From positions 114,871 through 178,870 of the forward strand of contig CAMYJO010000003.1 in the NCBI GenBank assembly GCA_947258755.1: a DNA stretch of 64,000 nucleotides, read 5' to 3'. The notes beneath the pieces are model-generated. The model made no database searches. It was not told the DNA's origin and worked only from the letters and a program-made list of their open reading frames with translations. The first letter of the stretch is position 1. Every line of letters begins with the position of its first letter. This document shows, in pieces, positions 1,731-8,259 of the stretch. A program made the translations under genes and the position numbers. Origin of the DNA: an uncultured Gammaproteobacteria bacterium. Its GTDB lineage: Bacteria; Pseudomonadota; Gammaproteobacteria; JAADHQ01.

Positions 1731-2444
1731 ATGAAAACCGATGTGCGAATATTATTCATCAGTATGCTGGCTGGCATTTTTCTGTCGCCGACACTGGTAC
1801 AGGCGGCTGCCCGTTATACCGATCACGCAGACATCAGAAAACACGCCAGTCAATATTTGCAGGACAAGGCCACTGCAATGGGTTTAAGCAATACCAAGAT
1901 TGAGTTAGGAAGCATCGACAACCGTCTGAAACTGGCACATTGTGGCTCCGGAATTGAAGTCACGAGCAATAACAGCCGCTTACCCGGCCATGTCTCATTG
2001 GCCGTGCGTTGTAATGCGGACAAACCATGGAAAATATACCTACAGGCTACTGTACATGCCTATCAACAGATTTATACGGCACGCGCGCAAATAAAGCGCG
2101 GCGAAACATTGAAGGCAACAGACCTGGTCAAGAAAAAACACGATATCACCAAATTAAATGGTAATTACATTACTGATATAAAGGACTTGCAAGGTCACGT
2201 AGCCAGGCGGCATATCCGCAAGGGCGAAATCATTAACCCCTTTGCGATCGTTAAATCAAAATTAATAAAACGCGGCGAACAGGTCACGATTATAGCAGAG
2301 ACCTCCGGTATCAAGGTACGCATGACTGGTAAGGCCATGAATGATGCATCCGCTGGAGAACAGGTGCGGGTAAAGAGCAAAAATTCCAAACGCATAGTCG
2401 AGGGAATTGCAGTAAACCGCGGAATTGTAAAGATTAATATGTAG
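1731..2444 (+). CDS. flgA: FlgA, flagellar P-ring assembly periplasmic chaperone
   Basis: FlgA is exported to the periplasm and helps FlgI polymerise into the flagellar P ring. The 237-residue protein starts with a signal peptide (hydrophobic stretch about residues 6-22, cleavage likely after VQA). The C-terminal half carries the SAF/FlgA-type beta-clip region (about 110-235), with ARAQIKRGETLKATDL, HIRKGEIINPFAIV and the terminal EGIAVNRGIVKI. It is transcribed away from cheV and followed 78 bp later by flgM, the usual flgA-flgM-flgN order. I looked for a sigma-54 promoter in the 198-bp divergent region and saw no convincing match. Confidence 0.94.
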   Translation: MKTDVRILFISMLAGIFLSPTLVQAAARYTDHADIRKHASQYLQDKATAMGLSNTKIELGSIDNRLKLAHCGSGIEVTSNNSRLPGHVSLAVRCNADKPWKIYLQATVHAYQQIYTARAQIKRGETLKATDLVKKKHDITKLNGNYITDIKDLQGHVARRHIRKGEIINPFAIVKSKLIKRGEQVTIIAETSGIKVRMTGKAMNDASAGEQVRVKSKNSKRIVEGIAVNRGIVKINM

Positions 2445-2522
2445 GCAATATGACTAAAGGATCCGTCTATATTGACGTTAAATATAACGGTGTAGTACAC
2501 CTTTAACTCAGGAGTATCCTCA

Positions 2523-2834
2523 ATGACGATTTCGATCAGTGATATTAACAAGCCGCAGGTAAATACCAGCGCCAATACGACATCTATCAACAAAGATAAT
2601 AATCGCCCCACTAATACCAATAGTACTGGTCAAGCTAATGACAGTATCACACTCACTGAATCAGCGAAATTAATACAGCAACTGGAAAAACAATTAGGCT
2701 CTGTACCGGTAGTTGACTCGGATAAAGTTGCCGAGGTCCGTGAAAATCTGAATAGTGGCAACTATTCGATTTCTACAGAGCGTGTTGCAGAAAAATTCGT
2801 TCGCTATGAATCCTTTCTTTTACAGGCAAGCTAA
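2523..2834 (+). CDS. flgM: FlgM, anti-sigma-28 factor
   Basis: FlgM binds FliA (sigma-28) and keeps late flagellar genes off until the hook is complete, when it is secreted. The protein has 103 residues, the normal size. The N-terminal 50 residues are Asn/Thr/Ser-rich and probably disordered, as in known FlgM proteins. The C-terminal sigma-binding half contains ITLTESAKLIQQLEKQL, VDSDKVAEVRENLNSGNYSI and ERVAEKFVRYE. It lies between flgA and flgN, 11 bp before flgN. An AGGAG ribosome-binding site precedes the ATG. Confidence 0.93.
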   Translation: MTISISDINKPQVNTSANTTSINKDNNRPTNTNSTGQANDSITLTESAKLIQQLEKQLGSVPVVDSDKVAEVRENLNSGNYSISTERVAEKFVRYESFLLQAS

Positions 2835-2845
2835 GGGCAATCGGC

Positions 2846-3325
2846 ATGAATAAAAAAGAATGTTACCTTGAACTTGAAATAATGCTTGATGCAGAGTTGG
2901 CACACGCCAATGCATTGATAGATTTACTCAAAAATGAAGGTGAAACCTTGCCCAAGGAAGCCGACACACTGATTGAAATAAGCACGCAGAAAAACTGCCT
3001 TATGAAAAAGCTGGAACAGTATCACACCCACCGTACCGCCCTGATAAAAACACTTGGGTTTAATACCGACCTTCAAGGCTTCAAGGATTGTATAGCATGG
3101 TGTGATCGTAATAATAATTTGCAATCAAAATTCAATCGTTACACAGAACAAGTCAAAACATGCAAAACTCTAAACCAGTTAAATGGTAGCGTTATGGATT
3201 CTAGCCTCCGTGTCGTTAAGCAGGCCCTGTCGATTCTTTATGGACAGCAGATTAATGAAGACACCTATAATGCCACAGGACAAGCAGAGTCAGGCAATAG
3301 AGGACGAAGTATCGCCAAGGCCTGA
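2846..3325 (+). CDS. flgN: FlgN-type flagellar export chaperone
   Basis: FlgN proteins escort the hook-associated proteins FlgK and FlgL to the flagellar export apparatus. This 159-residue protein is predicted to be mostly helical and starts with a heptad-like pattern (LELEIMLDAELAHANALIDLLKNE is the region, residues about 8-31). The C-terminal tail is hydrophilic. Sequence conservation in this family is low, so the call rests on size, helical character and the position directly after flgM. The stop codon is followed 7 bp later by the preferred start of the PilZ gene, so translation of the two may be coupled. Confidence 0.85.
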   Translation: MNKKECYLELEIMLDAELAHANALIDLLKNEGETLPKEADTLIEISTQKNCLMKKLEQYHTHRTALIKTLGFNTDLQGFKDCIAWCDRNNNLQSKFNRYTEQVKTCKTLNQLNGSVMDSSLRVVKQALSILYGQQINEDTYNATGQAESGNRGRSIAKA

Positions 3326-3332
3326 ATTCGCT

Positions 3333-4085
3333 ATGTATCATGACCACTCTGGAACTACAATTAAAAAAGAAACTACTTTGAACGGCGAAACAATCACAAA
3401 TCCGATAGAATCCGCCCGTCTACTAAATAAAGTTCGGGACAAACATTCATTGATTCAAATATCCATGCCGGGTGTACCGGAGATATTTTTTAGCGCCATT
3501 CTTTCGATTAACCCTGATAGTGAGTACATTCTGCTGGATGAAATCAACACCAAACATGGACACGAATTATTACTCATCCATAAAAAAATGCATGTTGTCA
3601 CCAAGATAAATGGCATAGAGATACGGTTCTCTGCCAACTTGATAGACATAAATAACCAGCACGGAAGCGCTGTCTATAAAATTGCATATCCTGAAAGTAT
3701 CCAATACCTGCAAAAGCGACAGAATTACCGCATCAATATTGGCCTTGGCATCAAAATCCCGATCAAATTAAAACGCGAAGATGGCATACCAGTTTATGGC
3801 CATATGATAAACCTCTCCGAGACCGGCGCCGGCATCGAGCTTGATAGTCCCTGCCCGGTGCAAAAAGCTGAAATCCTGCCGTACTGTGAATTAAGGATCC
3901 ATGAGGACGATATTATTAAATGCCAGTTAGAAATCAGGTATATAAATGACAATAACAGCAAGCATATTCAACGGATAGGCGGGCAATTTATTGGTTTGGA
4001 TGGTACACAACAACGTATACTGAGCAAATTAGTCATTGAATTACAACGCGACCTGATGAAAAGACTTCCTAAAGACGCCTTTTGA
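3333..4085 (+). CDS. YcgR-like flagellar brake protein (PilZ domain, c-di-GMP binding)
   Basis: YcgR-type proteins bind c-di-GMP through PilZ and slow or bias the flagellar motor. The protein has about 250 residues: an N-terminal YcgR-type beta domain (about 25-130) and a C-terminal PilZ domain (about 130-240). The c-di-GMP signature is present as RQNYR, preceded by QK, and later NLSETGAGIEL, matching the RxxxR and (D/N)xSxxG motifs. I prefer ATG 3333, just after the flgN stop with AAGG upstream. An in-frame ATG at 3270 would extend the N-terminus by 21 residues and overlap flgN by 56 bp. Location in a flagellar operon supports the brake role. Confidence 0.87.
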   Translation: MYHDHSGTTIKKETTLNGETITNPIESARLLNKVRDKHSLIQISMPGVPEIFFSAILSINPDSEYILLDEINTKHGHELLLIHKKMHVVTKINGIEIRFSANLIDINNQHGSAVYKIAYPESIQYLQKRQNYRINIGLGIKIPIKLKREDGIPVYGHMINLSETGAGIELDSPCPVQKAEILPYCELRIHEDDIIKCQLEIRYINDNNSKHIQRIGGQFIGLDGTQQRILSKLVIELQRDLMKRLPKDAF

Positions 4086-4715: not shown

Positions 4716-5382
4716 ATAGTCTTGACAACTTGTCAGTATCAACACCGACAAAATAGAGAAAACGCATTTTCCACATCAACAGAATTGTTTTGAATACGCC
4801 GCGCTTTTCCCAGCGTCGGCTTGATGTTAACAACGGCGTGGTCACGTTTATAGGCGCTGACTTTTTCTTCAATCTTTTGCAGATTTCAATATCCTCCATA
4901 ATCCTTATATCCGCATAACCGCCTATGCTGTTGAACAATCCCTTGTGTACAAACAAAGCCTGGTCTCCAGTGCTAATCCCGGTGATACGTGAGCGGAAAT
5001 TCATCATAGCCTCAATAATACGAAATATAAGCAAAGTTCCGCTCAGCCTGACATCAAACCGCCCCCATTGAGTATCCTTTAACTGCAACATGGATTGCAG
5101 ATAGTGATCAATAGAATCGATAAAGTCGCTATCGGCATGCACAAACCAGAGCACATCCCCAGAGGCGATCCGTGCCCCCGCATTCATTTGCGACGAACGC
5201 CCCTTGTCTGCATCAATAACTCTTACATCAGTAGCACATAGGTCGTCGCAAGTCCCATCCGTACTACCACCATCAACCACAATAATTTCATGCCCAGCAT
5301 CGAGCATTAATTGCAGTTTATCCAGCAACCCAGTCAAACTGTTTTTTTCATTATAGACAGGAATAATAACGGATATTTTCAT
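4708..5382 (-). CDS. TIGR04283-type family 2 glycosyltransferase (rSAM/selenodomain-associated transferase 2)
   Basis: This 224-residue protein has a GT2 fold: IPVYNEKNSL at residues 7-16, VVDGGSTDGT near 37 and the DxD-like VHADSD near 80. These mark a nucleotide-sugar-dependent transferase. GDQALFVHKGLFNSIGGYADIRIMED is the acceptor-side region typical of the TIGR04283 group, at about residues 142-166. It overlaps the TIGR04282 gene, and the two almost always travel together, so they are taken as one two-gene operon. The acceptor sugar or lipid is unknown. Confidence 0.88.
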   Translation of the reverse strand: MKISVIIPVYNEKNSLTGLLDKLQLMLDAGHEIIVVDGGSTDGTCDDLCATDVRVIDADKGRSSQMNAGARIASGDVLWFVHADSDFIDSIDHYLQSMLQLKDTQWGRFDVRLSGTLLIFRIIEAMMNFRSRITGISTGDQALFVHKGLFNSIGGYADIRIMEDIEICKRLKKKSAPINVTTPLLTSSRRWEKRGVFKTILLMWKMRFLYFVGVDTDKLSRLYE

Positions 5383-5449
5383 CGTCTGCTGGCGGCCTGT
5401 AGCCCCTTTAAGTATTAAAAATGACTATGCTGACAGCATAAAATTGTCA

Positions 5450-5467
5450 TATAATAGCCGCCATCAT
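5450..5467 (+). promoter_or_regulatory. -10 element and GC-rich discriminator of the tRNA-Arg gene
   Basis: TATAAT at 5450-5455 lies 12 bp before the mature tRNA. The seven bases after it are AGCCGCC, a GC-rich discriminator of the kind found at stable-RNA promoters under stringent control. No clear -35 is seen; CTGACA at 5430 is spaced too closely (14 bp). Stringent control is inferred from the discriminator only. Confidence 0.6.
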
Positions 5468-5544
5468 GCCCCGGTAGCTCAGCAGGATAGAGCAATCGCC
5501 TCCTAAGCGATAGGTCGGACGTTCGAATCGTCTCCGGGGCGCCA
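5468..5544 (+). tRNA. tRNA-Arg, anticodon CCU
   Basis: A complete 77-nt cloverleaf is visible. The acceptor stem pairs GCCCCGG with CCGGGGC, followed by discriminator G and an encoded CCA. The anticodon stem ATCGC/GCGAT encloses the loop CTCCTAA, giving anticodon CCT, which reads AGG. The T arm is GGACG-TTCGAAT-CGTCT with one G-U pair. The D arm contains GCTCAGCAGGATAGAGC. It is transcribed on the plus strand, and its last 18 bases are re-used as the start of the tandem repeats that follow. Confidence 0.97.
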
Positions 5545-5791
5545 ATTTAAAACAAAAGAGTCCACCATTAAAACTCTCCCATACAGCACATTCGAGCCAG
5601 ATTCGAACGTCCAGTATATAGCCGTTGGCTGAGAGCCGCGCTCGAACCATCGTCTCCGGGGCGCCAATTTAAAACAAAAGAGTCCACCATTAAAACTCTC
5701 CCATACAGCACATTCGAGCCAGATTCGAACGTCCAGTATATAGCCGCTGGCTGAGAGCCGCGCTCGAACCATCGTTTCCGGGGCGCCAATT
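5527..5791 (+). repeat. 2.2 tandem copies of a 122-bp unit beginning with the tRNA-Arg 3' end
   Basis: The 18 bases ATCGTCTCCGGGGCGCCA (3' end of the tRNA including CCA, at 5527) recur at 5649 and, with one change, at 5771, giving an exact period of 122 bp. Two full units and 21 bp of a third are present. Units 1 and 2 differ at only two positions: GCCGTTGGC versus GCCGCTGGC, and GTCTCC versus GTTTCC. Each unit also holds GATTCGAACGTCC, the reverse complement of the tRNA T-arm segment. Short apparent reading frames here on the minus strand are artefacts of the repeat. The array fills the gap between the tRNA and the relA stop; no terminator is visible in it. Confidence 0.95.
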
Positions 5792-5850
5792 CAGCTACAT
5801 CAACATAAAACATCGAAACGAATCACTTACGTTTATAGCGCCCATCTCTG

Positions 5851-8052
5851 TCAACTACTCCGTTTCACATCCAGTACATTCGGTAGTTGTGACATTTTAG
5901 CCAGTAAACGGCTGAGTGTTTGTATACTACTTACTTCCACGGTCAGTTTCATTTTCGCCTTATGGTCCTTGATATCGGTCATGGTATTCATACTCAGGAC
6001 ATTGATCTTTTCATCAGTCATCAGCGTGGTGATATCACGTAATAACCCCTGGCGGTCATAGGCCAGTACGGAAATATCAACAGGGTAAGTGGTTTCCTGA
6101 TGTTTGCTCCACGAGACTTCAATCAAGCGTTCATGACCCTGCCTAAGAATATTGGCACAATCAGCGCGGTGTATTGTAATACCCCTACCCTTGGTGATAT
6201 AGCCGATAATCGGATCACCAGGAGCCGGCTTACAACATCTTGCCATGGTAGTGAGCAGATTGCCGACACCATAAATTTTTACATCACCCTGAACCTCTCT
6301 GGCTTCAGTTAATATTGTCTGTTGCAGTGCTTCAGTATCAGGGTTTCGAGGTGTAGACAAATCCTGTGCTGCACCAGCAATTTGTGCAAAGCTGATATCA
6401 CCCTTACCGATCGATGCCGACAGATCTTGCGCATTCTTAAAACCCAGCTTGGTGGCTAAGGTTTCCTGGTTTAATTTACTCAGTCCAAGCCGAGCTAACT
6501 CTTTATCCAGGGCACTTTTGCCCTCGCGAATGTTCTTTTCGAGATCTTGATGGGTGAACCAGGCACGCACTTTGGCGCGAGCACGCGATGTTTTCAAATA
6601 CCCCAGGTGTGTATTCAGCCAATCTCTGCTTGGGGTACCTGCCTTGGTACTCATGATTTCTATCTGATCACCCGTCTTCAACGTATAGGTCAGTGGCACA
6701 ATAGAGCCATTGACCTTCGCACCACGACATCCATGCCCGACTTCGGTGTGTATGTGGTAAGCAAAATCCAGCGGGGAAGATCCCAAGGGAAGATCAACAA
6801 CATTACCCTTGGGCGTTAATACGTATACCCTGTCTTCAAATACCTCGGATTTAAAACGGTCTACAAATCCGTTAGCATCTGACTCCTCGTCTTTCCATTC
6901 AAGCAACTGTCTCAACCAGGTAATCTTTTGCTCATAACCCGGATCGTAACGTGAGCCTTCTTTATAGCGCCAATGTGAAGCAACGCCTAATTCTGAACGC
7001 TCATGCATTTCATGTGTCCTTATCTGGACCTCAAGTGTCTTGCCTCCCGGGCCAATGACTGCTGTATGCAAGGACTGATAGTTGTTGCCTTTAGGTGTGG
7101 CTATATAATCATCAAATTCGTTGGGAATATGCGGCCACAAGGAATGCACGATACCCAATACGGCATAACAATCAGCTACTGTATCTACCAAGACCCTGGC
7201 AGCGCTAACATCAAAAATATCATGGAAGTCGATCCCCTTCCTTTCCATCTTTTTCCAAATACTATAGATATGCTTTGGGCGACCGGTCAATTCTGCACTT
7301 ATATTTGCCTTAAGAAATTCTTTTTCCAGTATCGTGACAACCTTACTGATGAAATTTTCACGATCAAGCCGCCTTTCATCCAATAATTTTGCGATACGGG
7401 TATATTGTTCTGGCTCCAGGTATCGAAAAGACAGGTCTTCAAGCTCCCATTTGATCTGCCAGATACCCATTCGATTGGCTAACGGCGCAAATATATCCAT
7501 CGTTTCAGCAGCAATTCGTTTTCGTTTTTCAACTGTCAAGTGTGCCAAGGTGCGCATATTGTGTAAGCGGTCCGCCAATTTGATCATGATAACCCTGACA
7601 TCCTCTACCATGGCCAGCAACATCTTTCGCAAACTTTCTGAGTTATCCCATTTGTTTTTGGACTTATCCTGACTATCAGGTCTACCCCTGACTAACTCCA
7701 TCTTGGTGACGCCATCAACGAGCGTGCTGACAGAACGGCTAAATATAGATTCAATCTGTTCCAGGGTGACCGATGTGTCCTCAACAACATCATGTAAGAG
7801 CGCAGCTATGATTGACTCATAGTCCAGGTGTTGACCAATCAAAATATCCGCAACTTCAAAAACATGTATCGCGTAGGGGTCGCCAGATGCACGTTTCTGA
7901 TGTTTGTGCGCGACCAGCGCCATCGTCGCCGCCTCCCTAATCTTCTCTTGCTGATCTTGCGGGTAAAACGAATCCAGACCCTGCATCCAGTGGTCAAGCG
8001 AAAAAGCTTCTTGGTCGACTTTGCGGCCGTTTTTCTTGCTGGTACTAACCAT
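5851..8052 (-). CDS. relA: RelA-type (p)ppGpp synthetase with intact HD hydrolase motifs
   Basis: The enzyme makes (p)ppGpp from ATP and GDP/GTP during amino-acid starvation. About 733 residues carry, in order, an HD domain (about 35-190), a synthetase domain (about 235-350), a TGS domain (about 410-475), a helical/zinc-finger region and a C-terminal ACT domain (about 655-733). The synthetase has GRPKHIYSIWKKM and EFDDY (residues about 312-315), the acidic motif of RelA rather than the RxKD of bifunctional enzymes. TGS and later regions also look RelA-like (GDQIEI, SRDWLN). The HD domain nevertheless keeps HDVVED (about 87-92) and LADRLHNMRT. I chose ATG 8052; an upstream in-frame extension to 8097 looks unlike the family. 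Confidence 0.92.
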   Translation of the reverse strand: MVSTSKKNGRKVDQEAFSLDHWMQGLDSFYPQDQQEKIREAATMALVAHKHQKRASGDPYAIHVFEVADILIGQHLDYESIIAALLHDVVEDTSVTLEQIESIFSRSVSTLVDGVTKMELVRGRPDSQDKSKNKWDNSESLRKMLLAMVEDVRVIMIKLADRLHNMRTLAHLTVEKRKRIAAETMDIFAPLANRMGIWQIKWELEDLSFRYLEPEQYTRIAKLLDERRLDRENFISKVVTILEKEFLKANISAELTGRPKHIYSIWKKMERKGIDFHDIFDVSAARVLVDTVADCYAVLGIVHSLWPHIPNEFDDYIATPKGNNYQSLHTAVIGPGGKTLEVQIRTHEMHERSELGVASHWRYKEGSRYDPGYEQKITWLRQLLEWKDEESDANGFVDRFKSEVFEDRVYVLTPKGNVVDLPLGSSPLDFAYHIHTEVGHGCRGAKVNGSIVPLTYTLKTGDQIEIMSTKAGTPSRDWLNTHLGYLKTSRARAKVRAWFTHQDLEKNIREGKSALDKELARLGLSKLNQETLATKLGFKNAQDLSASIGKGDISFAQIAGAAQDLSTPRNPDTEALQQTILTEAREVQGDVKIYGVGNLLTTMARCCKPAPGDPIIGYITKGRGITIHRADCANILRQGHERLIEVSWSKHQETTYPVDISVLAYDRQGLLRDITTLMTDEKINVLSMNTMTDIKDHKAKMKLTVEVSSIQTLSRLLAKMSQLPNVLDVKRSS

Positions 8053-8259
8053 CACATTTCCAGAGGCTTCGTAAGAACAAAGCCAAAATCGACACAAAGA
8101 TTGGATTATATAAATTCATAGACTTCATATTAGTCAACTAAATGACATAAGTAAAATAACAACGGCATATACCGTAACGTTATAAACATAAGGCTCGACC
8201 GTACTAGAGCTGCACTCTAACAGCCTGCAATGATCGTCAGACTGGATTTACAAAAAACC

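Follow-up and report, generated by a model that had tools for sequence, protein, structure and literature searches.

The array behind tRNA-Arg(CCU)

The window, a stretch of DNA of 64,000 nucleotides on contig C3 of genome G000, carries a tRNA-Arg(CCU) gene followed by a short array of tandem repeats, located between the tRNA and the 3′ end of a convergent gene (Table 1). The last 18 nt of the tRNA, ATCGTCTCCGGGGCGCCA, are found again twice behind it, and the spacing of the copies is exactly 122 bp. Repeats of the tRNA 3′ end at this interval had been described in a sequence-only reading, with which both ARAGORN and a tail search agree. The recurrence of all 18 bases, also claimed there, holds for the copy at 5649, whereas the copy at 5771 bears one mismatch. 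Similarly, the two bases by which the full units were said to differ are obtained when counting from 5545, but only one base differs (99% identity) when the comparison starts at 5527. In the whole window just these three tail matches occur with up to three mismatches, compared with 0.04 in shuffled sequence. In the third copy the similarity reaches just 3 bases beyond the CCA. The core of unit 2 ends in CGAACC ahead of ATCG, where other units have CGAATA or CGAGTA. Each unit contains, upstream of its tail, the 13-mer GATTCGAACGTCC, antisense to the T arm of the tRNA; a match of 13 nt or more was obtained in 0 of 20,000 shuffles of the unit. A G+C-rich stretch lies 3′ of the candidate TATAAT, and a clear −35 element was not seen by eye.

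Table 1. Features at the tRNA-Arg(CCU) locus, numbered from the first nucleotide of the window
Feature	Position	Strand	Remarks
Candidate −10 element (TATAAT) of the tRNA promoter	5450-5455	+	Possible; from the letters alone
tRNA-Arg(CCU)	5468-5544	+	Intact, CCA encoded; ARAGORN; Rfam tRNA 65.5 bits
Tail copy 1	5527-5544	+	tRNA 3′ end, T-loop A59 to CCA, inside the tRNA
Unit 1	5545-5666	+	122 bp
Unit 1 spacer	5545-5593	+	
Unit 1 antisense arm	5594-5612	+	Degenerate
GATTCGAACGTCC, unit 1	5600-5612	+	Exactly antisense to T-arm nt 50-62 of the tRNA
Unit 1 core	5613-5648	+	Putative remnant
Tail copy 2	5649-5666	+	Exact
Unit 2	5667-5788	+	122 bp
Antisense T-arm 13-mer, unit 2	5722-5734	+	
Unit 2 core	5735-5770	+	36 nt (median elsewhere 75 nt); putative remnant
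Tail copy 3	5771-5788	+	One mismatch; end of the array
Convergent gene	5851-8097	−	Presumed RelA/SpoT-type (p)ppGpp gene

The same locus differs within the genus. In one sister species, G001 (L037), the tRNA-Arg(CCU) runs straight to the 3′ end of the neighbour gene and repeats are absent. A second sister species, G002 (L036), has an array at this tRNA, though made of a different 207-bp unit plus a second, degenerate one. One locus of one genus is empty in G001, occupied by an RtT array in G002 and apparently reduced in G000. An assembly artefact is unlikely, given that the units are not identical and that the tRNA-Arg(CCU) of a sister species is followed by an array of its own kind.

The convergent gene, named from reading its protein, is one that we take to be of the RelA/SpoT type. 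Such a neighbour is curious, as a link of rtT with the stringent response has been proposed, but its position beside the array is probably a coincidence, because G001 has the same neighbour without an array.

RtT units and their host-matched arms

The RNA known as rtT has chiefly been regarded as a peculiarity of one operon, that of tyrosine tRNA in E. coli. The parallel in layout with tyrT/rtT that had been noticed from the sequence is borne out, in that true RtT homologues stand behind other tRNAs of the window genome. When its tRNA loci were searched for copies of their own 3′ ends (up to two mismatches in the tail), these appeared behind Gln(UUG) (four), Gln(CUG) and Pro(UGG), and in degenerate form at Pro(GGG). 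The Rfam RtT model (RF00391) scores 51 bits at Gln(CUG), its gathering score being 45, and 34-38 bits, under that score, at the four Gln(UUG) units. The covariance model R1, built from 58 units with E. coli left out, gives 11 matches in this genome, at tRNAs Gln(TTG), Gln(CTG), Pro(TGG), Ser(GGA) and Ser(GCT), and assigns 66-73 bits to the rtT of E. coli, which was outside its training. The comparison strain was K-12, the tyrT of SK1144 being without annotated rtT.

Of 369 genomes sampled from the class, 81 have Rfam RtT matches and 154 have R1 matches. A sample of the phylum gave Rfam matches in 47 of 399 genomes, which belong to this class and to a single family outside it. Outside the genus, about 36 of 42 further R1 matches lie within 240 nt 3′ of a same-strand tRNA and 25 end in the tail of that tRNA, although this association was partly selected for by training R1 on units that all have both arms and by allowing no more than two mismatches in the tail search.

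A sample of 107 units behind 16 anticodons usually shows one order of parts, which E. coli tyrT has exactly: a spacer, an antisense arm, a core and a tail that repeats the host tRNA from position 59 in the T loop through the CCA. The spacer is often the terminator of the tRNA. The antisense arm is made of the host T-arm plus a variable acceptor part. The core begins 3′ of GTTCGA or GGTTCGA, has a median length of 75 nt, mostly ends in GAGTA or GAATA before ATCC, and contains several hairpins, one of them with CCCGNAGGG. A recognisable core start is absent in 16 of the 107 units, among them the two of the window, and reduced cores exist elsewhere too (for example 38 nt at L256).

The arms follow the tRNA behind which they stand. 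The antisense arm scores 15.1 against its own tRNA, 9.6 against other isotypes and 7.7 against shuffled sequence, and it matches its own tRNA better than other isotypes in 106 of 107 units. Covariation of the arm-tail pairing reaches 0.355, compared with 0.145 when shuffled and at most 0.094 when slid, and seven of nine arm pairs are changed on both sides. Since the arms are host-derived, copying as well as selection on an RNA may lie behind this covariation, and the compensatory changes in helix 4 of the core hairpins are better evidence of structure. A purpose of the arms in RNase P or CCA processing was considered and rejected, as many units pair over the T-stem alone and several have no CCA.

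RtT units are also found 5′ of tRNA genes on the same strand, in G124 (L434, L437 and L439), G017 (L443) and G018 (L432, L435 and L438), some of them ending in a partial copy of the 3′ end of that downstream tRNA. G124 further has an RtT core away from tRNAs, as part of a dispersed repeat (L444, L446, L447, L431 and L442) that measures about 326 bp and is bounded by perfect inverted ends of 23 bp, CTAGCCCGGATATTGCACCAAGG.

Cores within and between genomes

While the arms track the tRNA, the cores track the genome. Core similarity is 0.638 between units of the same genome behind different tRNAs, 0.538 between units of different genomes at the same anticodon and 0.539 between unrelated pairs, the within-genome excess having a permutation p of 0.0005. 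As cores are closer within a genome than at a shared anticodon, RtT elements seem to spread between tRNA genes, and this is the explanation we favour from the sequence comparison; gene conversion of cores could also produce the likeness within genomes. An example is G018, in which the cores behind Gln(UUG) and Val(GAC) are 94.5% alike and the arms fit Gln and Val, respectively. The tRNA-Val reads GTCC at a place where its unit reads ATCC, and this A is therefore probably derived from the element.

The direct repeat often continues beyond the CCA, the next 30 nt being 0.58 identical compared with a background of 0.28 (85 loci), an identity owed in part to tandem expansion. In about 10 simple cases it ends near the end of the terminator of the tRNA. 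The observed pattern of cores and arms could arise if elements insert and then copy the end of their host, and equally by gene conversion of cores. A mobilising enzyme for RtT elements was not identified in the analysis. In the wider family, the elements would pass among unrelated tRNA genes of one genome, with both arms fitting each new host, and RtT would then behave as a small non-autonomous element that targets the 3′ ends of tRNAs, and not as an accessory of tyrosine tRNA.

Origin of the window array and comparison with known systems

In formal terms the window array is not a member of RtT. The Rfam model gave no match in window positions 5300-5950 with E up to 10, the units thus lying below the RF00391 gathering cut-off, and R1 with filters off gave at most 1.8 bits, which is no match. 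The units fold no better than their shuffles (z of −0.35 and −0.59). With neither model matching and no fold beyond that of shuffles, a structured RNA from the window units is not supported, and judged by the folding a working one is unlikely. The multi-hairpin core with CCCGNAGGG is not in the window units, where 36 nt separate arm and tail. As for the P1 arm, the 13-nt antisense T-arm is there, but towards the acceptor the arm has degenerated, and folding does not predict that it pairs with the tail into P1. What has been kept is the layout, with same-strand tandem units 3′ of a tRNA that end in its 3′-terminal 18 nt, the tail boundary and the position in register of the antisense T-arm; most of the core has probably been lost.

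The sister species provides the connection. Both units of G002 at tRNA-Arg(CCU) match R1, at 29.6 and 29.9 bits and with an E value near 5e-4 per genome, and from these RtT-model matches at the same tRNA the window array looks like a reduced RtT. Outside the tail, the sole similarity between both arrays is GATTCGAACGTCC, at +55 after the CCA in the window and at +57 in G002, which counts against an RtT origin. On balance we consider it likely that the array belongs, in degenerate form, to the tRNA-linked repeats of RtT type. The sequence-only reading had suggested an independent case of such repeats; in view of the G002 scores, it probably is not.

We propose that an RtT element consisting of antisense arm and multi-hairpin core arrived 3′ of tRNA-Arg(CCU) in a forebear that only some members of the genus share. 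The core would from then on have been flanked on either side by the tRNA 3′ end, each copy running from T loop to CCA, and the tRNA would remain intact because the first copy completes it. The core may later have shrunk to about 36 nt, and recombination between identical tails would have duplicated the unit, giving the two near-identical units of 122 bp.

Three other origins were considered. In the first, the units are attL/attR-like scars of a tyrosine-integrase element that entered at the T loop of tRNA-Arg, amplified in tandem and unrelated to RtT. The array does repeat the 3′ part of the tRNA directly, and many tRNA-targeting islands copy that same segment, from T loop to 3′ end. Elsewhere in this genome, an integrase gene adjoins an 8.6-kb segment that lies between tail copies of tRNA-Arg(ACG). 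However, an island would need more than 122 bp, the integrase-family genes of the genome are on contigs C18, C20 and C41 and none is on C3, and the array gave no match to phages and two chance-level matches to plasmids. The internal antisense T-arm is moreover in the register of RtT units, and the sister array not only matches the RtT model but has RtT cores in its units. A scar is therefore unlikely. The segment at tRNA-Arg(ACG), beside a 392-aa tyrosine integrase ORF (L404, G000:C18), is itself an ordinary tRNA-linked island. Genes between tRNA-Arg tail copies beside RtT units were observed at L353 (G002:C21:63000-66700) and L411 (G311, 1788-3910), the cargo of one being an AbiEii-like nucleotidyltransferase gene (weak Pfam match) plus an ORF and that of the other a PD-(D/E)XK nuclease gene. 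These are possibly small islands with the tails as attachment sites; a cassette array was rejected, as there are two cases only and ordinary tRNA-targeted islands suffice.

In the second, the array is a functional rtT-like RNA gene, co-transcribed with tRNA-Arg and cut to CCA-ended RNAs of about 104-122 nt that act in trans. An rtT RNA has been reported in E. coli, the family structure is conserved by covariation, and the array is co-directional with the tRNA, its two units nearly identical. Against this, the window units have neither a fold beyond chance nor the conserved core, and in many family members the terminator of the tRNA itself stands between tRNA and RtT; such a gene is unlikely here. 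Finally, neutral tandem duplication that included the tRNA 3′ end by chance would suit two near-identical units, tandem duplications being common, but it would not yield a third partial copy ending just past the CCA, nor the same boundary at dozens of unrelated tRNA genes, and is very improbable.

Returning to a degenerate RtT, a joint reading may be offered tentatively, at somewhat less than even confidence. RtT units would be widespread, tiny non-autonomous mobile elements at tRNA genes of Gammaproteobacteria and one family of another class, re-deriving at each host both the antisense T-arm and the 3′ end, the latter copied in many cases together with the terminator. The window array would be a fossil, and the rtT of E. 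coli would be one copy that is resident or has been domesticated, and not a regulator by design.

The E. coli rtT RNA goes back to Bosl and Kersten (1991, as cited in PMC4986893 and PMC2965389). RtT-family RNAs beside tRNA-Asn and tRNA-Lys genes (PMC4986893), a link of rtT-like sequences to BIMEs (PMC2965389), a tandem G-A motif in RtT (PMC7657543) and, among Salmonella differences, a 175-bp variable-number tandem repeat in rtT RNA (PMC2658671) have been described. In the literature covered, which takes in a minority of subscription journals, no description of host-matched RtT arms was found. The present survey finds the RtT anatomy at no fewer than 16 anticodons, the arms going with the host tRNA and the cores with the genome. 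It makes an old question testable, namely whether RtT serves in regulation or is selfish and by what route a 75-nt core gains the end of whichever tRNA it follows; it also cautions that tandem repeats of a tRNA end are not necessarily integrase islands.

Among known systems, the closest is the RtT RNA (RF00391; rttR of E. coli tyrT/tyrV). In both, tandem units follow a tRNA on its own strand, contain an antisense T-arm and finish with the tRNA 3′ end from T loop to CCA, and the array stops just past a tail copy (L272). The window array differs from E. coli rtT in its unit of 122 instead of 178 bp, in following tRNA-Arg instead of tRNA-Tyr, in the absence of the hairpin core bearing CCCGNAGGG and in falling under every model score. 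Genomic islands and integrase att sites likewise leave direct repeats from T loop to 3′ end behind a tRNA, but the array has neither integrase nor cargo, and its units are short, in tandem and provided with an antisense arm. The dispersed repeat of G124 and the BIME link in PMC2965389 invite a comparison with small non-autonomous repeats. The RtT-type units of this survey resemble MITEs, REP/BIME, ERIC and Correia elements in being short, non-coding, repeated and rich in hairpins, and differ from all of them in being tied to tRNA genes, with arms that match the host.
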